A program made the position numbers and the translations under genes. Positions 774 through 34,079 of a stretch of DNA of 64,000 bases are shown piece after piece (positions within the stretch are counted from its first letter, which is position 1; every line of letters starts with the position of its first letter). The DNA lies in the NCBI RefSeq assembly GCF_001553605.1, contig NZ_CP014229.1:351001-415000 (forward strand), given 5' to 3'. The notes below the pieces were generated by a model. That model saw only the letters and a list, made by a program, of their open reading frames with translations, had not been told where the DNA came from and did not search any database. This DNA comes from Desulfovibrio fairfieldensis. Lineage in GTDB: Bacteria > Desulfobacterota > Desulfovibrionia > Desulfovibrionales > Desulfovibrionaceae.

Positions 774-1619
774 TTAGACGTTGTCGATGCTGCGCTTCCA
801 GGGGCAGAGCTTGCGCTCGAGAAGGGAGACGCCCAGAGAGCTGATCCAGGCCGCCGCCGCGATGAGCAGCATGCCGCTGAGGACCAGGGAGGGATTGTGC
901 GTGTCCATGCCGCGCTTGATCAGGAAGCCCAGACCGTCGCGGGAGTTCATCAGTTCGGCGGCCAGCACGCAGGTCCAGGCCGCGCTGAGCGAGATCTGCA
1001 GGCCCGCGAAAACCGCCGGAAAGGAGGCCGGGAAGCAGACGTGGAAGATTTCGTCCCGGCGCTTGCCGCCGAGCACGCGGATGACGTCGTACAGGTCCGG
1101 GTCCACCAGGCGCACGCCGTTGTAAGCGTTCAGCAGGCAGGGCACGAAGGTGCCGATGATGATGATGAAGACCTTGGAGAATTCGCCGATGCCGAACCAC
1201 AAAATGGCGATGGACACCCAGGCGATGGGCGGCATGGGCTTGAACAGGTCGAAGAGCGGCTTGACGATGCCGTGGACTGTTTTGTTCAAAGCCATGAACA
1301 GGCCCAAGGGCACGGCCACGACGCTGGCCAGGATAAAGCCGATGATGACGCGCTGGAAGCTGGCCCAGATGTGGCCCCAGAGGTTGGTGCCCGCGAATTT
1401 CATGCCGGTCAGGCGGATCATCTGATCCAGCACCTGGGCGGGCGTGGCCAGGGAGTCGCGGAAGATTTTTTCAGCCGCGGTCCAGTGCCAGAGCGAGAAA
1501 AAGGCCACAATGGACACGCAATACAGGAAGTACGTGTTAGTAATCAGTTTATAGAGCGTAAACCGTCCGCGTTCAGCCGCATGGTCGACGGTTTCGTTGG
1601 CAATGGATGAAGACGCCAT
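774..1619 (-). CDS. ABC importer permease (TauC/SsuC/NrtB type), second of two
   Basis: Inner-membrane permease of the binding-protein-dependent type, 281 residues, with about six hydrophobic segments. A cytoplasmic EAA-like loop (IRVLGGKRRDEIFHVCFPAS) contacts the ATPase. The ATG at 1619 has a GGAGGT ribosome-binding site 6 nt upstream and starts 3 nt after the stop of the other permease, so translation is probably coupled. Family and fold are clear. The substrate is not; taurine or another sulfonate is inferred from the taurine aminotransferase 8 kb away. The two permeases are clearly different proteins rather than a recent duplication, implying a heterodimeric channel, whereas TauC and SsuC normally act as homodimers. 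Confidence 0.93.
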   Translation of the reverse strand: MASSSIANETVDHAAERGRFTLYKLITNTYFLYCVSIVAFFSLWHWTAAEKIFRDSLATPAQVLDQMIRLTGMKFAGTNLWGHIWASFQRVIIGFILASVVAVPLGLFMALNKTVHGIVKPLFDLFKPMPPIAWVSIAILWFGIGEFSKVFIIIIGTFVPCLLNAYNGVRLVDPDLYDVIRVLGGKRRDEIFHVCFPASFPAVFAGLQISLSAAWTCVLAAELMNSRDGLGFLIKRGMDTHNPSLVLSGMLLIAAAAWISSLGVSLLERKLCPWKRSIDNV

Positions 1620-1622
1620 GAA

Positions 1623-2417
1623 TTACCTCCTGATGCCGGCCAGCAGCCTCTTTTCGATATAGTCGATGATGATCCCGATGATGGCGCCGGAAACGCCCAC
1701 GCAGATCATGCCGAGCACGATCAGGTCAGGCCGGGCCACGCGTCCGCCCATGGTGATGAGGAAGCCCAGGCCGGAGTCGGCGGCCAGCAGTTCCGCGCCC
1801 ACCAGGTTGGTCCAGCAGTAGGCCAGAGCAAGCTGGAGCGCGCCGAAAACCATGGGCAGCGAGGACGGGATGCACAACTGGGTGAAAATCTGCCAGTCAT
1901 TGGCCCCGTAGGTTCTGGCCATCTGGATCAGCACCGGGCTGGTCATGCGCACGCCCACGTAGGCGTTGATCACGCAGGGCACAATGCCCGCGATCCAGAT
2001 GATGAACACCTTGCCGGTCAGACCGATGCCGAACCAGAACACGGTGAGGGGAATCCACGCGATGGGCGGGATGGGCCGGATGAGTTCGAAAATGGGGCGG
2101 AACAGGCCTTCGGCCACTTTGAACCAGCCCATGGCCAGGCCCAGGGGCAGGCCCACCAGCAGCGCCAGCACGTAGCCGATGGCGGCTTCCTGCAAGCTGG
2201 TCTTGAAGTGGGTCGCCATCACGGCGCCGTCGGGGTTGGGGTTGGTCAGTTTGTCTATGAAGGCGTCGAAAACCTGGCTGGGAGCGGCCAGCAGAGTCTG
2301 GGGAATCATGCCCGAGCGCACCGCGGTTTCCCAGATAAGGAAAAAGGCGATAATGCTGATATAGGGGAGCGCTCGAAGCAGAGGCGGTTCTTTTACAACG
2401 ACAGTCTGATAAGCCAT
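1623..2417 (-). CDS. ABC importer permease (TauC/SsuC/NrtB type), first of two
   Basis: Inner-membrane permease, 264 residues, BPD_transp_1 fold with about six transmembrane segments. The EAA-like loop is ARTYGANDWQIFTQLCIPSS. The ATG at 2417 is preceded by GGAGGA. The gene sits between the ATPase gene at 2458-3213 and the second permease gene, with 40-nt and 3-nt gaps, so all belong to one leftward operon. Pairing of two unlike permeases with two unlike ATPases is seen in some nitrate/sulfonate-type systems. The transported compound cannot be read from the permease sequence. Confidence 0.93.
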   Translation of the reverse strand: MAYQTVVVKEPPLLRALPYISIIAFFLIWETAVRSGMIPQTLLAAPSQVFDAFIDKLTNPNPDGAVMATHFKTSLQEAAIGYVLALLVGLPLGLAMGWFKVAEGLFRPIFELIRPIPPIAWIPLTVFWFGIGLTGKVFIIWIAGIVPCVINAYVGVRMTSPVLIQMARTYGANDWQIFTQLCIPSSLPMVFGALQLALAYCWTNLVGAELLAADSGLGFLITMGGRVARPDLIVLGMICVGVSGAIIGIIIDYIEKRLLAGIRR

Positions 2418-2457
2418 AACATCCTCCGGGCTGCGTTGGTATGGTCAGGCGCGCGCC

Positions 2458-3213
2458 TCACCACCAGCGGATAAGTTCCGTGACCTGCCTGCGCAGCTCC
2501 ACAAATCTGGGATCAATAAGTTTGCGGGGGCGGGGCAGGTCCACCTGGATTTCCGCCTTGACCTTGGTGGGCTTGTTGGTCAGCACCAGAATGCGTTCGG
2601 CCACGTACACGGCCTCCTCGATATTGTGCGTGACGAAGAGGATGGTGCTGTTCAGCTTTTGCCAGAGATTGACCAGCTCGTCTTCAAGGTAGAAACGCAG
2701 CTTCACGTCCAACTGTCCGTATGGCTCGTCCATGAGCAGCAGATCGGGGTTCACGGCGAAAGCGCGCGACACCGCGATGCGCTGCATCATGCTGGCTGAA
2801 ACCTGGTTGGGATAGAGGTCGGCGCAGGAGGAAAGGCCGACAAGATCCATGATGTCCGAGGCGCGCTGTTCGCGCTCAGCTTTGGGAACCCCTTTGACTT
2901 CCATGCCGTAAGCCACATTTTCGCGCACGGTGCGCCAGGGCAGGCAGGTGGGTTCCTGAAAGACGTAGGCGATGTTGTGTTTTTTGGGATTGGCTTCCTG
3001 CCCGTCGATGAGGATATCGCCCTCCGTGGCGGGCATCAGCTTGGACAGGCAGTTCAGAAATGTGGTCTTACCGCAACCGGTGGGACCGACGATGGCCAGT
3101 AACTCCCCTTTTTTGATGGTGAAGTTGATGCCATCAAGAACGGTGAGAGCGCCAAAACGTTTGGTGAGATTATTCACCCGGATTTTGACGTCAGCTTCTT
3201 CCTGACAGGGCAC
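2458..3213 (-). CDS. TauT/NitT-type ABC importer ATPase with degenerate signature, second of two
   Basis: First gene of the importer operon, 251 residues, starting at GTG 3213 with AAGGAG 7 nt upstream. Walker A is GPTGCGKT (43-50), Walker B ends MDEP, and the H-loop histidine is present (VTHN, His196). The ABC signature, normally LSGGQ, reads VSASM (138-142): both glycines that cradle the ATP gamma-phosphate are changed. Combined with the partner ATPase, which keeps LSGGM but lacks the H-loop histidine, this predicts one canonical and one degenerate composite ATP site. Whether the protein hydrolyses ATP alone is unknown. Confidence 0.93.
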   Translation of the reverse strand: MPCQEEADVKIRVNNLTKRFGALTVLDGINFTIKKGELLAIVGPTGCGKTTFLNCLSKLMPATEGDILIDGQEANPKKHNIAYVFQEPTCLPWRTVRENVAYGMEVKGVPKAEREQRASDIMDLVGLSSCADLYPNQVSASMMQRIAVSRAFAVNPDLLLMDEPYGQLDVKLRFYLEDELVNLWQKLNSTILFVTHNIEEAVYVAERILVLTNKPTKVKAEIQVDLPRPRKLIDPRFVELRRQVTELIRWW

Positions 3214-3566: not shown

Positions 3567-3582
3567 ATTGATCCTGTTTGTG

Positions 3583-6500
3583 TCAGCGCGCCATGGCCAG
3601 CAGCTTGTCCAGGCTGGCTCCGGCGTCGCCCAGCAGCAAGGTGACGCCGGGCTTGGTATAGAGGGGGTTGTCCACGCCCGCGTAACCGGGCTTTTCGTCA
3701 TAGTTGCAGATGATCACGGCCTTGGCCCTGTCCGCTTCCAGAATGGGCATGCCGTAAATGGGGGTGCCTTCGGCGGTGTTGGCCGCCGGGTTGACCACGT
3801 CGTTGGCGCCCACAATGATCACCAGATCCGCGTCCGCGAACATGGGATTGACCGTGTCCATTTCCAGCAGATGCTCGTAATCCACATTGGCTTCGGCCAG
3901 AAGCACGTTCATATGGCCGGGCATGCGGCCCGCCACGGGATGGATGGCGTAATTGACCGTGGCGCCGCGTTCCTCCAGCACATCGGCCAGTTGCTTGACC
4001 TTGTGCTGGGCCTGGGCCAGGGCCATGCCGTAGCCGGGCACGATGATCACGTTCTTGGCGGTCTTGAGCGCCTGTGTGGCGTCCTGGGCTTCCGCCTTTT
4101 CCGACGCCGCCTCGGCAGACGCGGCGGGCGCCGCGCCCGATGCGAGCTTGACCAGGTTGCCCACGGTCTGGGCGGCGTCGCCCAGCATCATGATTACGCC
4201 GGGCTTGGTGTAAAGCGGGTTGTCCACGCCCGCGTAACCGGGCTTTTCATCATAGTTGCAGATGATCACGGCCTTGGCCCTGTCCGCTTCCAGAATGGGC
4301 ATGCCGTAAATAGGGGTGCCTTCGGCGGTGTTGGCCGCCGGGTTGACCACGTCGTTTGCGCCCACGATGACCACCAGATCCGCGTCCGCGAACATGGGAT
4401 TGACCGTGTCCATTTCCAGCAGATGCTCGTAATCCACGTTGGCCTCGGCCAGGAGCACGTTCATGTGGCCGGGCATGCGGCCCGCCACGGGATGGATGGC
4501 GTAGTCGACTTCGGCGCCGCGTTCTTCCAGCGCGTCGGCCAGTTGCTTGACCTTGTGCTGGGCCTGGGCCAGGGCCATGCCGTAGCCGGGCACGATGATC
4601 ACCTTCTTGGCCGTGGTCAGCAGGCGGGCGGCCTCCGAGTCGGCGTCTTTGGCGGGCTCGGCCTGGGCGGCGGCAGCGGAAGCGGGAACCTGTCCGGCGG
4701 CGTAACCGGCCAGCGCGCCCACGGTCTGGGCGGCGTCGCCCAGCATCATGATTACGCCGGGCTTGGTGTAAAGCGGGTTGTCCACACCGGCGTAACCGGG
4801 CTTTTCATCGTAGTTGCAGACGATCACGGCCTTGGCCTTGTCCACTTCCAGAATGGGCATGCCGTAAATGGGGGTGCCTTCGGCGGTGTTGGCCGCCGGG
4901 TTGACCACGTCGTTGGCGCCGATGATGATGGCCAGATCGGCATCCGGGAACATGGGATTGACCGTGTCCATTTCCAGCAGGTGCTCGTAATCCACATTGG
5001 CTTCGGCCAGGAGCACGTTCATATGGCCGGGCATGCGGCCCGCCACGGGATGGATGGCGTAATTGACCTTGGCGCCTCTGGCCTCCAGGGCGTCGGCCAG
5101 TTGCTTGACCTTGTGCTGGGCCTGGGCCAGGGCCATGCCGTAGCCGGGCACAATGATCACGTTCTTGGCCGTGGTCAGCAGTCGGGCGGCCTCGGCGGCG
5201 GTATCCGCAGCGCCCGTTTCGGCCGGAGCGGCGGCTGCGGAAGCGGGAGCCTGTCCGGCAGCGTAACCGGCCAGCGCGCCCACGGTCTTGGCCGCGTCGC
5301 CCAGCAGCATGTACACGCCGGGCTTGGTGTAAAGCGGGTTGGGCACCCCGGCGTAGCCGGGCTTTTCATCATAGTTGCAGATGATCACGGCCTTGGCCTT
5401 GTCCGCTTCCAGAATGGGCATGCCGTAAATGGGGGTGCCTTCGGCGGTGTTGGCCGCCGGGTTGACCACGTCGTTTGCGCCCACGATGACCACCAGATCC
5501 GCGTCCGCGAACATGGGATTGACCGTGTCCATTTCCAGCAGGTGCTCGTAATCCACATTGGCTTCGGCCAGAAGCACGTTCATGTGGCCGGGCATGCGGC
5601 CCGCCACGGGATGAATGGCGTAATTGACCTTGGCGCCTCTGGCTTCCAGGGCGTCGGCCAGCTGTTTGACCTTGTGCTGGGCCTGGGCCAGGGCCATGCC
5701 GTAGCCGGGTACGATGATCACGTTCTTGGCCGTGGTCAGCAGCTTGGCGATTTCAGCGTCCTTCTGCGCGGCGGCCTGAGCGGGCTGCGCGGCCTTGGGG
5801 GTCTGGGACGCGGGCGCTTTGGCGGCGGCTGCCGCCCGGACGCCGGATTTGCCGGCCACGGAGGATTGGCCCAGCAGGATGGGCATCAGCTTGCGGTTCA
5901 TGGCCTTGCACATGACGCGGGTGAGCATCAGACCGGCGGAACCCACAATGCCGCCCACGGCGATGAGCAGCGGGTCGGACACGGCGAAACCGGCGATGGC
6001 GCAGGAAATGCCGCCCATGGAGTTGAGCAGGGAAATGGTGATGGGCATGTCCGCGCCGCCTACCCGGATGGTGAAGACGATGCCGAACAGCGCGCCGGTG
6101 GCGAACATCACAAAGATGAAGAACCAGGGAAGGAACGTCGGCGCAATGTTGTAAATGCACAGGGCAACGAGCATGATGCCCAGCAGGATGTTGATGATCC
6201 GGCTGTGGTTGGAGAGCACGATGGGCCGCTGCGGCAGCAGCTGGTGCAGTTTGCCCGCCGCCACAAAGGAGCCCGCGATGGTCGTCATGCCCGAGCAGAG
6301 AGCGAGACAGGCGTCAATGCGATGGAATGCGGAGGGCGTGCCCACATCCGTCAGCATGATCAGGCCCACCAGGGCCGCGGCGCCGCCGCCGAAGCCGTGC
6401 AGGAAGGCCACCAGCTGGGGCATCTGGATCATCTTGACCTTGTTGGACAGGAACAGGCCGAAGGCCGTGCCCAATGCTATCGCCACCCAGAGGGTCGGAG

Positions 6501-6669
6501 AGCCGAGCGAATTGTCCTTGTACATGGTGATGAGAATGGCGCAGGCCATGGCCGCGGCGCTGAGGATATTGCCGCGCACGGCCGTCTTGACGTTGCTCAT
6601 CAGGTTCAGGCCGTACAGGATGGCCAGAGCAAGTACGGCGGCAATGACGTTGTAAAGTAAGGTGCTCAT
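3583..6669 (-). CDS. pntB: NAD(P) transhydrogenase subunit beta with four tandem NADP(H)-binding domains
   Basis: Beta subunit of the proton-translocating transhydrogenase, which couples proton flow to hydride transfer between NAD(H) and NADP(H). It has 1028 residues; ordinary PntB has about 460-480. Residues 1 to about 285 are the membrane domain II, with multiple hydrophobic helices. Then follow four consecutive copies of the NADP(H)-binding domain III. Each has the Rossmann-type motif VPGYGMALAQAQ (first Gly at 322, 509, 695 and 879), the GANDVVNPAA segment and the YAGV-NPLY segment. Copies repeat every 184-187 residues and are joined by Ala/Pro-rich linkers of about 20-30 residues. All four keep the nucleotide-binding motifs; the linkers have diverged while the domains stay almost identical. 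It is the last gene of pntAA-pntAB-pntB. An artefact is unlikely because the linkers differ in length and sequence. Confidence 0.96.
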   Translation of the reverse strand: MSTLLYNVIAAVLALAILYGLNLMSNVKTAVRGNILSAAAMACAILITMYKDNSLGSPTLWVAIALGTAFGLFLSNKVKMIQMPQLVAFLHGFGGGAAALVGLIMLTDVGTPSAFHRIDACLALCSGMTTIAGSFVAAGKLHQLLPQRPIVLSNHSRIINILLGIMLVALCIYNIAPTFLPWFFIFVMFATGALFGIVFTIRVGGADMPITISLLNSMGGISCAIAGFAVSDPLLIAVGGIVGSAGLMLTRVMCKAMNRKLMPILLGQSSVAGKSGVRAAAAAKAPASQTPKAAQPAQAAAQKDAEIAKLLTTAKNVIIVPGYGMALAQAQHKVKQLADALEARGAKVNYAIHPVAGRMPGHMNVLLAEANVDYEHLLEMDTVNPMFADADLVVIVGANDVVNPAANTAEGTPIYGMPILEADKAKAVIICNYDEKPGYAGVPNPLYTKPGVYMLLGDAAKTVGALAGYAAGQAPASAAAAPAETGAADTAAEAARLLTTAKNVIIVPGYGMALAQAQHKVKQLADALEARGAKVNYAIHPVAGRMPGHMNVLLAEANVDYEHLLEMDTVNPMFPDADLAIIIGANDVVNPAANTAEGTPIYGMPILEVDKAKAVIVCNYDEKPGYAGVDNPLYTKPGVIMMLGDAAQTVGALAGYAAGQVPASAAAAQAEPAKDADSEAARLLTTAKKVIIVPGYGMALAQAQHKVKQLADALEERGAEVDYAIHPVAGRMPGHMNVLLAEANVDYEHLLEMDTVNPMFADADLVVIVGANDVVNPAANTAEGTPIYGMPILEADRAKAVIICNYDEKPGYAGVDNPLYTKPGVIMMLGDAAQTVGNLVKLASGAAPAASAEAASEKAEAQDATQALKTAKNVIIVPGYGMALAQAQHKVKQLADVLEERGATVNYAIHPVAGRMPGHMNVLLAEANVDYEHLLEMDTVNPMFADADLVIIVGANDVVNPAANTAEGTPIYGMPILEADRAKAVIICNYDEKPGYAGVDNPLYTKPGVTLLLGDAGASLDKLLAMAR

Positions 6670-8556: not shown

Positions 8557-9933
8557 TTAGGCCTTCACCACCTGGAAGGCCTTGTCCAGAGCCTTCAGGA
8601 TTTCGTCGATCTCGGCCGTGCCGGCGATCAGCGCCGGGGCCAGGCAAAGGGTGTTGTTCAGTTCGCGGAAGCAGCGGCTGGTCTTGCCGATGATCACGCC
8701 CTGCTTCATGCATTCGCCCACCACGGCTCCGGCCGTGGCTTCGGACACGGGCTCCTTGGTGGTGCGGCTCTTGACCAGTTCGAGCCCGCAGAACAGGCCC
8801 TTGCCGCGCACGTCGCCGATGATTTCGTACTTCTTTTCCAGAGCCTTCAGGCCGTCCATGAGGTAATCGCCCATCTTGACGACGTTTTCGAGAACCTTGT
8901 GCTCTTCCATGTAGTTGATGTTGGCGTAACCGGCGGCGGGACCGGCGGTGCAGCCGCCGAAGGTGCTGATGTCGCGGAAGTAGCTGTCGCGGTCAGAGGG
9001 ATCGGCCAGGAAGTCCTGGAAGACCTGCTCGGTGGTCACGGTGCAGGAAATGGGCGCGTAACCGGCGGCCACGCCCTTGGCCATGGTCACGATGTCGGGC
9101 TGGACGTTGAAGTGCTGGTAGCCGAACCATTTGCCGGTTCTGCCGAGGCCGCAGACCACTTCGTCGATGATCAGCAGCAGGCCGTACTTCTTGCAGATTT
9201 CGGTCAGGGTTTCGTAGTAGCCTTCGGGCGGCACGATGACGCCGCCGCCAGCGGTGATGGGCTCGATGATCACGGCGCCCACGGTGTCCGGATCTTCCTT
9301 CTGCACCACGGCTTCAAGCTCGCGGGCGAATTTTTCGCCCAGGTTGGTGGTGCCGGCGGGGTAGGGCGAACGGTATTCGGAGCAGGCCGGGAATTCCACG
9401 AAGCCGGGGGTGAAGGGGCCGTACTGGTTCTTGCGTTCTTCCTGGCCGCAGGCGCTCAGCGTGGTGATGGTGGTGCCGTGGTAGTCGCGGTTGCGGTAGA
9501 CGATCTTGTATTTCTTGCCGCCGTGCTTGAGCTGGGAAATCTGGCGGACGATCTTGAAGGCCTTTTCATTGGCTTCGGAACCGGAGTTGGAAAGATACAC
9601 GCGGCTCATGCCGGGCATCTTCTCAATCAGTTTTTTGGAGAACTGGATGGTGGGGATGTTGCCGAAGCCGTTGGCAAAGTAGCAGAGCTGCATGAGCTGG
9701 TCGCTCACGGCCTTGACCAGGGTTTCGTTGCCGTAACCGAGGTTGACCGTCCAGACGCCGCCGGAAACGGCATCCAGATACTCTTTGCCGTAGATGTCCT
9801 TGATCCGCATGCCCTTGCCTTCGACAAAAACAGTGGGATCGGATTTTTCAAAGACTTTGTGCTGGGTGAGGTGATGCCAGACGTATTTCTTGTCGTCGGC
9901 GATCAGTTCAGCGGCATTAAAGGACTGGGCCAT
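8557..9933 (-). CDS. tpa: Taurine:pyruvate aminotransferase (class III)
   Basis: PLP enzyme of 458 residues that moves the amino group of taurine to pyruvate, giving sulfoacetaldehyde and L-alanine; this is the entry step of anaerobic taurine dissimilation in Bilophila and relatives. Class III features are visible: the SNSGSEANEKA cofactor segment, IIDEVVCGLGRTG, and the Schiff-base lysine in TMAKGV (Lys286). Overall length and motifs fit Tpa better than generic omega-aminotransferases. The ATG at 9933 is chosen because GGAGGA precedes it by 5 nt; a TTG four codons earlier overlaps that site. It is expressed from a sigma-54 promoter about 335 nt upstream and followed by its own terminator. 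No sulfoacetaldehyde acetyltransferase or isethionate lyase gene is in the window. Confidence 0.88.
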   Translation of the reverse strand: MAQSFNAAELIADDKKYVWHHLTQHKVFEKSDPTVFVEGKGMRIKDIYGKEYLDAVSGGVWTVNLGYGNETLVKAVSDQLMQLCYFANGFGNIPTIQFSKKLIEKMPGMSRVYLSNSGSEANEKAFKIVRQISQLKHGGKKYKIVYRNRDYHGTTITTLSACGQEERKNQYGPFTPGFVEFPACSEYRSPYPAGTTNLGEKFARELEAVVQKEDPDTVGAVIIEPITAGGGVIVPPEGYYETLTEICKKYGLLLIIDEVVCGLGRTGKWFGYQHFNVQPDIVTMAKGVAAGYAPISCTVTTEQVFQDFLADPSDRDSYFRDISTFGGCTAGPAAGYANINYMEEHKVLENVVKMGDYLMDGLKALEKKYEIIGDVRGKGLFCGLELVKSRTTKEPVSEATAGAVVGECMKQGVIIGKTSRCFRELNNTLCLAPALIAGTAEIDEILKALDKAFQVVKA

Positions 9934-10009
9934 GATTTCCTCCAAAGAAAAGGTTTCCGGAATGGTTGCCTTCCCCTCCGCGACGCGGCGAAGAAGGGCG
10001 ACGGTCAGC

Positions 10010-10661: not shown

Positions 10662-11756
10662 TCAGAGGCAGTCGCAGAGGGTGCGGGCCCGCAGGGATTT
10701 GAGGCGGATGGAGCCGCTCAGCAGCTCCGCGCGCAATTCCTTGAGGCGGCGTTCCAGGTCCGGCGGCGCGTTCTGGCCCGCCGCAGCCGTGAAGGCGCGC
10801 GGGTCCGTAATTCCCACGCCATCGTTGCTCAGGTCGTAGGTGATGATTTTTTTGCCCTGAAAGTTGCCACGGGACGCGTCGGCCACGATTTCGTACACGG
10901 CCCTATCCGCCCGTTTCAGGATGGAGGTCAGCACATGGCCGGGCAGAACTTGGGCCTGGTCCGTATCCAGGCCAACAATATATATGCCGCGCTCCCGCGC
11001 TTCCGCCAGCGCCCCCTCGTTGCCCGCGCCGGCGGCCAGCGCCAGCACGTCCGCGCCCTGGTCCAGCAGGCGGCGCGCCTCCCCCCGGGCGGCCCGGGCA
11101 TCGGTGAAGGAACCGGCCACGGCGTTGATGACCCGGATTTCCGGATCAATGAGTTGCGCGCCCCCGCTGAAGCCGCTGAACAGGGAGCGCAGCGCGGGCG
11201 TGTCCTCGCCGGAAAGCCAGCCCACGGTCTTGTCCCGATTGATGCCGGGCAGGCCGGTCCGGCCGGTCAGCATGGCCGCCGCGGCCCCTGCCAGATAGGC
11301 TGCCTGCTCGTCGGCAAAGGTGACGGACATGATGTTGGGCGCGCGTATGCCCGCGTCAATGCAGCCGAACATGGTCTTGCGGAAGTTGGCGGCATTGTTG
11401 CGCAGAATTTCGTGCAGCCGGTCGGACGCCACTAGGACCAGATCCGACTCCCGCGCGGCCTGGCGGAAGGTTTCCTGCTGGTCGCTTTCCGGCGGGGCGA
11501 CAAGCACCTTGGTCTGGAGAGGGAAATCACGCTCCGCTTTGGCCAGACCGGCGCGCAGCAAATCCGTCCAGGGTTGGCCGCCGTCGTGTTCCAGCAGCAG
11601 GGTCACGCGCAGGGGAGAGGCCGCGGACGCGTTCTCGCCGGACTGCGCAGATTGCGCGGGCGGCCCGGCCAGGGCCGTTCCGGCGGCAAAAACAAGGACG
11701 GCAAGCAACAGCCCGAACAGGCGGGCAACGGCCCTTTGCTGGTAAAAAAGCGGCAT
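10662..11756 (-). CDS. Periplasmic BMP/Med-family substrate-binding protein
   Basis: Periplasmic-binding-protein-like protein of 364 residues in the family of Med and PnrA (BMP), which bind nucleosides or related small molecules for ABC importers. The N-terminus has a signal peptide (LLLAVLVFAAGTALAGPP) with no lipobox cysteine, so it is probably a soluble periplasmic form rather than the usual lipoprotein. Typical features are VGWLSGEDTPALRSLFSGFSGG and the VIVGLDTDQ-like segment (YIVGLDTDQAQVLPGHVLTS). The C-terminus has an extra Arg/Leu-rich helix. The ATG at 11756 follows GAGGAG. No permease or ATPase partner is adjacent, so the ligand is unknown; it is divergent from hydG. Confidence 0.8.
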   Translation of the reverse strand: MPLFYQQRAVARLFGLLLAVLVFAAGTALAGPPAQSAQSGENASAASPLRVTLLLEHDGGQPWTDLLRAGLAKAERDFPLQTKVLVAPPESDQQETFRQAARESDLVLVASDRLHEILRNNAANFRKTMFGCIDAGIRAPNIMSVTFADEQAAYLAGAAAAMLTGRTGLPGINRDKTVGWLSGEDTPALRSLFSGFSGGAQLIDPEIRVINAVAGSFTDARAARGEARRLLDQGADVLALAAGAGNEGALAEARERGIYIVGLDTDQAQVLPGHVLTSILKRADRAVYEIVADASRGNFQGKKIITYDLSNDGVGITDPRAFTAAAGQNAPPDLERRLKELRAELLSGSIRLKSLRARTLCDCL

Positions 11757-12015
11757 AGTCTATTCTCCTCGGCGGCCGGAAATGGCGGGCACGGCGGCAT
11801 CGTGCCGGACGTGCCGCCCGGCGCGCCCTATGGCAACGGATGCAGTGTAGGACCGCGCGGCGCGTCCGGCAAGCCACCAGATGGAGAGGGCATGGGCTGT
11901 GAAATAAATAACTAGTATTTTTTCCCGCCCCATGCTAGATATCGTCGCACGCGAGGAAGGCCGGCCATAAAGGCCGCGCCGCCTGTTGTTATTTCTGCCT
12001 GTAAGGATGGTCAGC

Positions 12016-13407
12016 ATGCCCACGGATACGTTGCCCCCCTGGTTGGACACACAAGCGATTGAAAAAGCCCTGAGCCGAGAAAGCGCGCCGGACAGCGCCG
12101 AGCTGCGGGATATCCTGGATAAATCGCTGGCCCTGGAGTCCCTGGGCATCCAGGAAGCCGTCGCCCTGATGCGGGTCAGCGACGCCGAACATCTGGCGCT
12201 GCTGCTGCACACGGCGGATCAGGTCAAACAGAAAGTCTACGGCGACCGCATTGTGCTTTCCGCGCCGCTGCACATTTCCAACTACTGCGGCAGCGAGTGT
12301 CTCTATTGCGCCAACCGCCGCGGCAATACGGCGGTGGAGCGCAAATATATGACCCCGCCGGAAATGCGCGAGGCCGGACGCAAGCTGATCCGCCAGGGAC
12401 ACAAGCGGGTTTTTCTGGTCAGCGGCCAGCTGCCCAATGCGGACGTTGAATATCTTGAGGAAGCCGTCAGCGTGCTGTACACCGCCTTTGACGGCGTGGG
12501 CGAGATCCGCCGGGTCAACATCAATGTGGGCCCGCTGAAGGCTGAGGAGTATGCCCTCCTGCAGGCCGCGGACGTGGGCACGGTGCTGATTTATCAGGAC
12601 ACCTACCATGAGGCGAGTTATCGCGCCGCGCATGTGAGCGGCCCCAAGAGCGATTACCTGGCCCGCCTGCACGCCCCGGACACGGCTTTTCAGGCCGGGG
12701 TAGGGGATGTCGGCCTGGGACTGTTGCTGGGCCTGGGGCCCTGGCGGTACGACCTGCTGGCCGTCATGCTGCACGCCGCGCATCTCACGCGGGTCTATGA
12801 CGCGGGCAGCCGCACCGTGAGCATGCACCGCCTGCGCCCCACGCCCGGCGGCCGGTTCAAGACGCCCTATCCGCTCAGCGACGGGGAATATCTGCGTTGC
12901 GTGGCCATCACCCGTCTGGCCGTGCCGTATACCGGCATCGTGCTGACTACCAAGGAGCCCGCCGGGCTCTGGCGCGACGGCTGCAACGCGGGCTGCTCGC
13001 AACTGCTCACCGGCAGCGTGGCCAACCCGTATGAGAGCTGGGTTGAAGCGCCGGGCGAAAAAACGCCCTTTCCCATCGGCGAGGATTGCCATGTGGACGA
13101 GGTGGTGCGCTTCCTGCTGGAAGAGGCCCGGCACCTGCCTTCTTTCTGTACGGCCTGTCCGCGTCTGGGCCGCAGCGGCCATGAATTCCTCTCCATGGTG
13201 CAGGAATGCGGCATGAAGAGCCAGTGCGGGCCCAATTCCATGGCCTCGTTCATGGAGTTCCTGCTCAATTACGCCACGCCCTATACCCGCCGGATGGGGG
13301 AAAAGCTGATTTCCGAAAAGCTGGACGGCCTGCCGGAGCATGAGCGCGGCGCTGCGGAACGCCTGTTGCAGAAGGTCAGGTCCGGGCGCATGGACGAGTT
13401 TATTTAG
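12016..13407 (+). CDS. hydG: [FeFe]-hydrogenase maturase HydG (radical SAM tyrosine lyase)
   Basis: Cleaves tyrosine to make the CO and CN ligands for the [FeFe]-hydrogenase H-cluster. It has 463 residues from the ATG at 12016, which has AAGGA about 8 nt upstream; earlier in-frame GTG/TTG starts lack a site. The radical SAM cluster ligands form C91-x3-C95-x2-C98 (YCGSECLYC). The C-terminal auxiliary-cluster motif specific to HydG is present: C378-x2-C381 in FCTACPRLGRSG and C404 in SQCGPNSMASFMEFLLNYA. ThiH, the related enzyme, would have a different C-terminal motif. The partner genes hydE and hydF and the hydrogenase itself are not in the window. Confidence 0.95.
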   Translation: MPTDTLPPWLDTQAIEKALSRESAPDSAELRDILDKSLALESLGIQEAVALMRVSDAEHLALLLHTADQVKQKVYGDRIVLSAPLHISNYCGSECLYCANRRGNTAVERKYMTPPEMREAGRKLIRQGHKRVFLVSGQLPNADVEYLEEAVSVLYTAFDGVGEIRRVNINVGPLKAEEYALLQAADVGTVLIYQDTYHEASYRAAHVSGPKSDYLARLHAPDTAFQAGVGDVGLGLLLGLGPWRYDLLAVMLHAAHLTRVYDAGSRTVSMHRLRPTPGGRFKTPYPLSDGEYLRCVAITRLAVPYTGIVLTTKEPAGLWRDGCNAGCSQLLTGSVANPYESWVEAPGEKTPFPIGEDCHVDEVVRFLLEEARHLPSFCTACPRLGRSGHEFLSMVQECGMKSQCGPNSMASFMEFLLNYATPYTRRMGEKLISEKLDGLPEHERGAAERLLQKVRSGRMDEFI

Positions 13408-32387: not shown

Positions 32388-34079
32388 ATGGAATGCACAG
32401 GTGCGCAGATTCTCCTTGAATCCCTGAAGCGTGAAGGCGTGGACGTGCTGTTCGGCTATCCGGGCGGCGCGGTAATCGATATTTATGACGAACTGCCGCG
32501 ACATCCCGAGATCCGCCATGTGCTGGTCCGCCATGAGCAGGGAGCTGTGCACGCGGCTGACGGCTATGCCCGCGCCTCCGGCAAGGTGGGCGCCTGCCTG
32601 GTGACTTCCGGACCGGGCGCCACCAACACGGTGACGGGCATAGCCACAGCCAACAGCGATTCCATTCCTCTGGTGGTGATCACGGGCCAGGTGCCCACCA
32701 AGCTGATCGGCAACGACGCCTTTCAGGAAGTGGATATTGTGGGCATTACCCGCTCGTGCACCAAGCACAACTTCCTGGTCAAGGATGTGAGCAAGCTGGC
32801 CCTGACCATCCGCCAGGCCTTTTATCTGGCCCGCTCGGGCCGCCCCGGCCCGGTGCTGGTGGACCTGCCCAAGGACGTGGTCCAGGCCAGGGCGGAATTC
32901 GTCTGGCCGGAAGACATCTACATGCGCAGCTACAACCCCACCTACAAGCCCAATCTCAACCAGTTGCGGCGCACGGTGGAGGAGCTGGCCCAGGCCAGGC
33001 GGCCGGTGCTCCTGGCGGGCGGCGGCGTGATCATGGCCGATGCCGCCGAAGAACTGACCGCGCTGGCGCACAAGCTGCAAATCCCCGTGGCCTGCACGCT
33101 CATGGGCCTGGGCGGCTTTCCGGCCACGGACCCGCTGTCGCTGGGCATGGTGGGCATGCACGGCACCTACGCCGCCAACCTGGCCATCAACAACGCGGAT
33201 CTGCTGGTCTGCGTGGGCGCGCGCTTCGACGACCGCGTGACCGGCAAGCTGACGGCCTTCGCCTCCAAGGCGCGCATCGTGCATATCGACATCGACCCCA
33301 CCTCCATCCGTAAAAACGTGGAAGTGGACGTGCCGGTGGTGGGCGATTGCCGACAGGCTCTGTCCGGCATCATGGAAATCTGTGAGGCCAAGCTGGCGGA
33401 CAAGGACTGGGCCGGCGAGCATGCCGAGTGGATTCGCGCCGTGTCCGAGTGGAAGGAAAGCAAGCCCCTTTCCTACCAGCAAAACGGCAACATCAAGCCC
33501 CAGCAGGTGGTGGAAGCCCTGCGTCACCTCACCCGCGGGGACGCCATCATCGCCACGGAAGTGGGGCAGCACCAGATGTGGGCCGCCCAATTCTATTCTT
33601 TCACCAAGCCGCGCACCCTGCTGACCAGCGGCGGCCTGGGCACCATGGGCTTCGGTTTTCCGGCGGCCATCGGCGCGCAGTTCGCTTTTCCGGACAAGCT
33701 GGTCATCGCCGTGGCCGGCGACGGCTCGCTGCAGATGAATATTCAGGAGCTGGCCACGGCCGTGGCCTACAAGCTGCCGGTCAAGGTGGTCATTCTGAAC
33801 AACCGCCATCTCGGCATGGTTCGCCAGTGGCAGGAGCTTTTTTACAACCATAACTACAGCTCCACCAACATGGAGGCCCAACCCGACTTTGTGAAGCTGG
33901 CCGAAGCCTACGGCGCCGAGGGCTACCGCATTGAAAAGCCCGAGGACCTTCTGCCCGAGCTGGAAAAGGCCCTGGCCTCGCCTAACCCCGCTTTTATCGA
34001 CGTGGTGGTGGAGCGCGAGGAAAACGTCTATCCCATTGTGCCCGCCGGCGCGGCGCTGGATGAAATGCTGCTGGTGTAG
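32388..34079 (+). CDS. ilvB: Acetolactate synthase, large subunit
   Basis: ThDP-dependent enzyme of 563 residues that makes acetolactate or acetohydroxybutyrate, the first step of valine/leucine/isoleucine synthesis. It shows the FGYPGGAVIDIYDEL N-terminus with the catalytic Glu in RHEQGAVHAADGYAR, the ThDP motif GDGSLQMNIQELATA and the FAD-binding VCVGARFDDRVTGK. The ATG at 32388 has GAGGTG 6 nt upstream, better than the GTG three codons earlier. It is followed by a structured repeat and then the regulatory subunit gene. Confidence 0.96.
   Translation: MECTGAQILLESLKREGVDVLFGYPGGAVIDIYDELPRHPEIRHVLVRHEQGAVHAADGYARASGKVGACLVTSGPGATNTVTGIATANSDSIPLVVITGQVPTKLIGNDAFQEVDIVGITRSCTKHNFLVKDVSKLALTIRQAFYLARSGRPGPVLVDLPKDVVQARAEFVWPEDIYMRSYNPTYKPNLNQLRRTVEELAQARRPVLLAGGGVIMADAAEELTALAHKLQIPVACTLMGLGGFPATDPLSLGMVGMHGTYAANLAINNADLLVCVGARFDDRVTGKLTAFASKARIVHIDIDPTSIRKNVEVDVPVVGDCRQALSGIMEICEAKLADKDWAGEHAEWIRAVSEWKESKPLSYQQNGNIKPQQVVEALRHLTRGDAIIATEVGQHQMWAAQFYSFTKPRTLLTSGGLGTMGFGFPAAIGAQFAFPDKLVIAVAGDGSLQMNIQELATAVAYKLPVKVVILNNRHLGMVRQWQELFYNHNYSSTNMEAQPDFVKLAEAYGAEGYRIEKPEDLLPELEKALASPNPAFIDVVVEREENVYPIVPAGAALDEMLLV

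Follow-up and report, generated by a model that had tools for sequence, protein, structure and literature searches.

What reaction is carried out by a transhydrogenase-like enzyme whose membrane subunit bears four nucleotide-binding domains instead of one? Transhydrogenase is a model for the manner in which a soluble redox reaction drives a proton channel, and the question is raised by an operon in a 64,000-nucleotide stretch of the Desulfovibrio fairfieldensis genome (hereafter the window, meaning the whole stretch analysed). An initial annotation of the locus had read it as a PntB with one membrane domain (dII) and four copies of domain III (dIII), acting as several mobile arms or as an NADP(H) store, and knew of no described transhydrogenase with this layout. 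The last statement holds for the open-access literature, in which no published description of tandem dIII, of an NAD-type dIII or of a hybrid between alanine dehydrogenase (AlaDH) and transhydrogenase was found. The operon (8267-3583) is best explained as encoding an alanine dehydrogenase that is coupled to protons and linked to NAD(H), with the build of a transhydrogenase and with its NAD(H) arms in tandem, a reading considered probable but well short of certain.

Organisation of the operon and of the dIII array

The genes of the operon are read from the minus strand in the order dI, 4-TM subunit and PntB (Table 1). The Pfam models PNTB, PNTB_4TM and AlaDh_PNT are all matched, the dI, dII and dIII architecture thus being present, and the window Pnt conforms to the transhydrogenase architecture of NCBIfam PRK09444 (917 bits against 689). 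The subunit split, the dI fold, the RQD loop and the NAD-binding Asp are the same as in the PntAA/PntAB/PntB enzymes of Rhodospirillum rubrum and of the Thermus thermophilus three-subunit type; dII likewise carries GGADMP and, at the channel position of TM9, the same choice of His or Asn, and the dIII fold is common to both. The window operon belongs to a new class, which differs from these enzymes in having one to four dIII rather than one, N-[YFL]-D in place of the KRS motif of dIII, and an AlaDH residue set in dI.

Table 1. Positions of the operon and of its neighbours in the window
Feature	Position	Strand	Description
Taurine/sulfonate-type ABC transporter	774..3213	-	ATPase 2458-3213; permeases 1623-2417 and 774-1619
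pntB-like gene, 1028 aa	3583..6669	-	ATG start; membrane domain dII (about residues 1-268) and four dIII
dIII copy 4	3586..4066 (approximate)	-	about residues 868-1027; NYDEKPGYAGVDN
dIII copy 3	4145..4618 (approximate)	-	about residues 684-841; NYDEKPGYAGVDN
dIII copy 2	4703..5176 (approximate)	-	about residues 498-655; NYDEKPGYAGVDN
dIII copy 1	5264..5737 (approximate)	-	about residues 311-468; NYDEKPGYAGVPN
PntAB-like 4-TM subunit, 93 aa	6728..7009	-	Pfam PNTB_4TM, E 1e-24
PntAA-like dI, 389 aa	7098..8267	-	AlaDH-type residues R20, K80, H107, M148, S149, D303, N329; RQD loop and NAD Asp210 kept; transhydrogenase dI fold
Class-III aminotransferase, candidate taurine:pyruvate aminotransferase (Tpa-like)	8557..9945	-	just upstream of the operon; Pfam Aminotran_3, E 5e-97; putative substrate

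The span first annotated, 3583-5790, covers the dIII half of a gene that in its entirety extends from 6669 to 3583. Within it, four separate stretches match the Pfam PNTB model. The copies share 86-93% identity in protein and 89-92% in DNA over at least 300 aligned nucleotides; they are spaced at 552/558/561 nt in the DNA and at 187, 186 and 184 residues in the protein, with the first Gly of PGYG at residues 322, 509, 695 and 879. The layout of one membrane domain and four dIII spaced by 184-187 residues was thus confirmed by DNA repeats, Pfam matches and residue spacing. Tandem Repeats Finder gave no match to the array, the period of which exceeds the 500-nt limit of the program.

The linkers between the copies are divergent and rich in Ala and Pro, as had been described, and are predicted to be disordered (AlphaFold2 pLDDT below 50 at residues 269-298, 477-488, 664-674 and 846-861). 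In the model of the 1028-residue PntB, the dIII-like units are predicted without a fixed arrangement (mean pLDDT 72, pTM 0.35). The idea of several mobile arms to each membrane domain, each a separately folded dIII on a flexible linker, is supported. Repeated carriers on flexible Ala/Pro-rich linkers recall, in their manner of working, the tandem lipoyl domains of the E2 component of 2-oxoacid dehydrogenases, although the dIII fold and cofactor are unrelated to these and dIII carriers must in addition couple to a proton channel.

An assembly artefact was ruled out by the source genome being one complete contig of 3.70 Mb, by the same layout in many genomes and by copy-by-copy orthology, each window copy being closest to the copy of the same number in a sister species (94-99% amino acid identity). 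A second PntB was not found in the source genome. A plus-strand ORF of 1030 residues (3568-6660), antisense to PntB, was rejected as a spurious mirror of the GC-rich repeated gene. Plasmid searches with the repeated query, which is unable to show copy number, returned matches below 60% identity, the annotated ones being ordinary transhydrogenases.

The nucleotide site of dIII

The KRS motif of loop E (K424-R425-S426 in E. coli PntB) is reported to help define the preference for NADP(H) over NAD(H) (PMC9529548). In an alignment of 299 dIII, these three adjacent columns read K-R-[SG] in 67/67 canonical and N-[YFLM]-D in 232/232 new-class domains, and are the only fully class-fixed sites. Both classes have PGYG, HPVAGR.PGHMNVLL, GA.D and PI.GMP in common. 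The nucleotide motifs of the window copies, previously described as intact, are so for PGYG, HPVAGRMPGH and GAND, but KRS reads NYDEKP in all four. A swap of NADP for NAD is usually marked by loss of the Lys and Arg that bind the 2'-phosphate together with gain of an Asp, and the new-class dIII would accordingly be expected to bind NAD(H) in place of NADP(H). With N-Y-D in place of KRS throughout the four copies, the proposed NADP(H) arms or NADP(H) store are not supported, while the flexible and separately folded nature of the arms stands.

A Lys occupies motif position 5 (NxDxKP) in 210 of the 232 new-class dIII, and a positive charge at position 4 or 5 is almost universal. This conserved Lys might meet a phosphate, which leaves some doubt on the NAD reading. 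It could serve a different explanation, regarded here as unlikely, namely that the enzyme is an ordinary NADH:NADP+ transhydrogenase in which the 2'-phosphate is held by other residues such as this Lys, the AlaDH-like residues of dI are ancestral, and the extra dIII raise turnover or NADP(H) occupancy. The very strong homology with PntAA/PntAB/PntB, with all the catalytic dI loops and dII kept, agrees with that explanation; the class-fixed Asp for Ser at the 2'-phosphate position disagrees with it, as does Mobiluncus, where the new class and a canonical Pnt coexist.

In six loci (L060, L070, L119, L122, L138 and L143) the arrays are mixed, their first copies reading NYDTKP or NFDTKP and the last NLDRSP or NLDRAP, which suggests a division of labour between the arms.

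Taxonomic spread and evolution of the array

A PntB is present in 20 of 121 related genomes and belongs to the new class in all but one (G110), with three or four dIII wherever the gene is complete. Each of two genomes, G021 (L319, L320) and G151 (L321, L322), has both a four-dIII and a three-dIII operon, and an amino-acid permease lies upstream of the four-copy operon in both. The motif N[YF]DxKPGYAG was sought in 84,980 species genomes and found in at least 120 stretches; among the matches listed are Bacteroidales, Clostridia, other Bacillota, Riflebacteria, Anaerolineae, Mobiluncus and Desulfovibrio, and the named organisms are mostly anaerobes. In Mobiluncus porci, the canonical KRS transhydrogenase (L290) is found along with a new-class member (L291) that adjoins a fumarase gene.

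Canonical PntB sequences for comparison were obtained from Pfam-model surveys of Bacteroidota, Actinobacteriota and Bacillota, many of the genomes analysed being draft assemblies. All 65 complete canonical PntB have one dIII, whereas the complete new-class PntB comprise 68 with one, 19 with two, 13 with three and eight with four. Tandem dIII were seen in the new class only (0/68 canonical PntB of the tree). On the membrane-domain tree, single or multiple dIII status switched at least about 20 times, and the dIII copies of several lineages form clades of their own; the arrays thus appear to be repeatedly gained and lost, a pattern that gene conversion can mimic.

Such frequent changes could mean that unequal crossing-over between homogenised repeats gave rise to the four dIII neutrally, without any mechanistic advantage, whatever the chemistry of the enzyme. 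This possibility is rather unlikely. The dS values between copies are 0.17-0.27 within the gene against 0.27-0.44 between species, so that the synonymous sites, for which a check on homogenisation had been suggested earlier, are partly homogenised, as the neutral explanation expects; about 70 sampled class members have a single dIII, which leaves the benefit of several arms unexplained. Sequence constraint points the other way: copy-specific residues persist between species despite the homogenised synonymous sites, every window copy retains the class-conserved residues (59/59), and dN/dS between orthologous copies is 0.04-0.07. Arrays also arose separately in several lineages. Judged from these substitution patterns, all four copies are under purifying selection, and the extra arms are kept by selection. 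The simplest idea for their benefit is a larger number of carriers per membrane domain.

The alanine dehydrogenase-type site of dI

Transhydrogenase dI and L-alanine dehydrogenase (Ald) are homologous. Overall, new-class dI resembles transhydrogenase dI far more than AlaDH: the predicted fold of the window dI is that of transhydrogenase dI (the model matches 1f8g), it has the transhydrogenase RQD loop and an operon with membrane and dIII subunits, and it scores about 136 bits with the Ald model, below the 392-bit cut-off. The likeness to Ald lies in the residues of the active site. The equivalents of Ald R15, K75, H96, M133, S134, D270 and N300 in the window are R20, K80, H107, M148, S149, D303 and N329, and all seven are invariant in new-class dI, among them the four that Ald is known to need (R15, K75, H96 and D270; 76/76). 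The new-class residues align with the Ald motifs KVKEP, T.LH.A and VD.AIDQGG, and K80, H107, D303 and Q304 are invariant in 76/76 new-class dI. In canonical dI (n=56), the Lys occurs in none, the Asp in one and a His near the H96 column in six, and the full set never. AlaDH activity is lost on replacement of R15, K75, H96 and D269 (PMC10401832; also PMC4691113).

The hydride-transfer loop (R135, Q140, D143) and the NAD-binding Asp210 are invariant in the same 76 sequences, so that new-class dI still fits a dIII partner; it seems equipped to act on an amino acid as well as to pass hydride to dIII. With an AlaDH active site in dI, the new-class enzyme probably does not function as a transhydrogenase. 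A reversed transhydrogenase with NADP-swapped dI was also considered and is ruled out by the invariant NAD Asp.

The AlaDH residues could instead be ancestral remnants, or serve another 2-oxo or amino acid. In a dI tree rooted with Ald, new-class dI falls with transhydrogenase dI; the canonical dI are grouped (support 98) and the new class is basal, with its own branch unresolved and a long outgroup branch. The basal position is what the ancestral state invoked for an ordinary transhydrogenase predicts; the strict invariance of the Lys, His and Asp across many phyla (76/76) counts against that explanation. Further invariant residues of the pocket region in new-class dI, such as an HPAxP stretch, are absent from Ald, and would be in keeping with the same energy-coupled dehydrogenase acting on another amino or 2-oxo acid, or on a lineage-dependent substrate (alanine in Desulfovibrio and others elsewhere), an alternative that seems quite improbable in view of the genomic distribution described below.

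A second, separate Ald-like protein with Asn for the catalytic Asp (VNQGG, ANQGG) occurs in two Parabacteroides loci, L300 and L301, the former adjoining a shikimate kinase gene.

Genomic distribution and gene neighbourhood

Among the 121 related genomes, new-class Pnt is present in 19 and classical Ald (above the curated cut-off) in 54, and no genome has both (Fisher 4e-6 overall and about 8e-4 within the genus, counted as 74 members, values overstated by the non-independence of species). Ald above the cut-off was not found in the source genome; it is present in two Desulfovibrionaceae with canonical Pnt (G143 and G154). By genome distribution, new-class Pnt replaces classical Ald and is the only Ald candidate of the taurine users that carry it, a pattern that supports replacement rather than activity.

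Xsc is the desulfonating enzyme of taurine degradation. It is present in the source genome (780 bits) and in 17 of the 19 genomes with new-class Pnt, against 8 of the 102 without (Fisher 7e-13, again overstated since the species are not independent); one of the two new-class genomes lacking Xsc is 63% complete. Exactly one of Ald and new-class Pnt occurs in 24 of the 25 Xsc genomes (17 with Pnt and seven with Ald), the single genome with neither (G005) being 98% complete. The exclusion of classical Ald and the tie to Xsc count against an ordinary transhydrogenase, and within the Desulfovibrionaceae the Ald/Xsc distribution points to alanine rather than to another substrate. The family is described as degrading taurine through Tpa, Ald and Xsc or through Tpa, Ald, SarD and IslAB, Ald regenerating pyruvate (PMC10507020, PMC8667426), and Ald is the enzyme employed by a related organism that uses taurine by way of Tpa and Xsc (PMC10507020). 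A thiamine-diphosphate enzyme encoded in the window (32397-34019, plus strand) scores 365 bits with the Xsc model, below the cut-off, the true Xsc lying elsewhere in the genome.

The window operon is flanked by the Tpa-like aminotransferase and by the taurine-type ABC transporter, after whose permeases a second ABC ATPase (at the window start) and a substrate-binding protein (just outside the window) follow on the same strand. A class-III aminotransferase also adjoins new-class Pnt in L326, L336, L323 and L125, and a symporter of the Na+:alanine family lies beside the new-class operon of Anaerococcus (L096), which again favours alanine over another substrate. Elsewhere the neighbours include amino-acid permeases, class-III aminotransferases, AsnC/Lrp regulators (8/52) and diaminopimelate (DAP) dehydrogenase (5/52); their variation by phylum, which extends to fumarase, would suit a lineage-dependent substrate. 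An AsnC neighbour, a further likeness to Ald, is also found at a classical ald; the few canonical pnt operons scanned, a small control, have neither this regulator nor the other neighbours named. Also in the window are a gene for a Bmp/PnrA-like substrate-binding lipoprotein (10662-11756, minus strand), two genes upstream of dI, and a 473-residue radical-SAM ORF (11986-13407, plus strand), HydG/ThiH-like by eye.

Proposed mechanism

In the proton-coupled alanine dehydrogenase proposed here, dI would bind NAD as an ordinary transhydrogenase does and, at the AlaDH-type substrate site formed by R20, K80, H107 and D303, would oxidise an amino acid, of which L-alanine is the most likely candidate, giving the 2-oxo acid and ammonia and leaving NADH on dI. 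The hydride would then pass to NAD+, rather than NADP+, on a dIII arm, as the N-Y-D motif suggests. By analogy with transhydrogenase, dIII would swing between dI and dII and so tie the hydride step to the passage of protons through dII. An exchange between two domains that both hold NAD could not by itself do work; the substrate site on dI would provide a net reaction, alanine + NAD+ + H2O = pyruvate + NH4+ + NADH, coupled to proton movement. If, as in the known enzyme, protons enter while hydride moves from dI to dIII, alanine deamination, itself unfavourable, would be drawn forward by the proton gradient, and in fermenters the reverse, alanine formation, could pump protons. Two to four dIII on Ala/Pro linkers would represent several NAD(H) carriers per dI/dII. 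In the source genome, the enzyme would stand in for classical Ald, regenerating pyruvate for taurine degradation in the sequence Tpa, new-class Pnt and Xsc.

Significance

The chances appear evenly balanced that these proteins constitute a widespread, undescribed enzyme class of anaerobes in which proton translocation is directly linked to the oxidation or synthesis of alanine, both nucleotide domains carry NAD and the arms number one to four, and which may represent the ancestral state before an NADPH-making transhydrogenase arose from alanine dehydrogenase. With its two substrate sites altered and its number of arms varying, such a sister class would make the coupling rules of transhydrogenase testable apart from NADPH. 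If a proton-coupled alanine dehydrogenase is indeed encoded, it would rank as a novel type of energy-coupled enzyme among anaerobes and would add an energy-conserving site to taurine respiration and to the amino acid fermentation of gut, rumen and digester anaerobes, and the genes now annotated in these organisms as NADPH-producing transhydrogenase would be misassigned in metabolic models.
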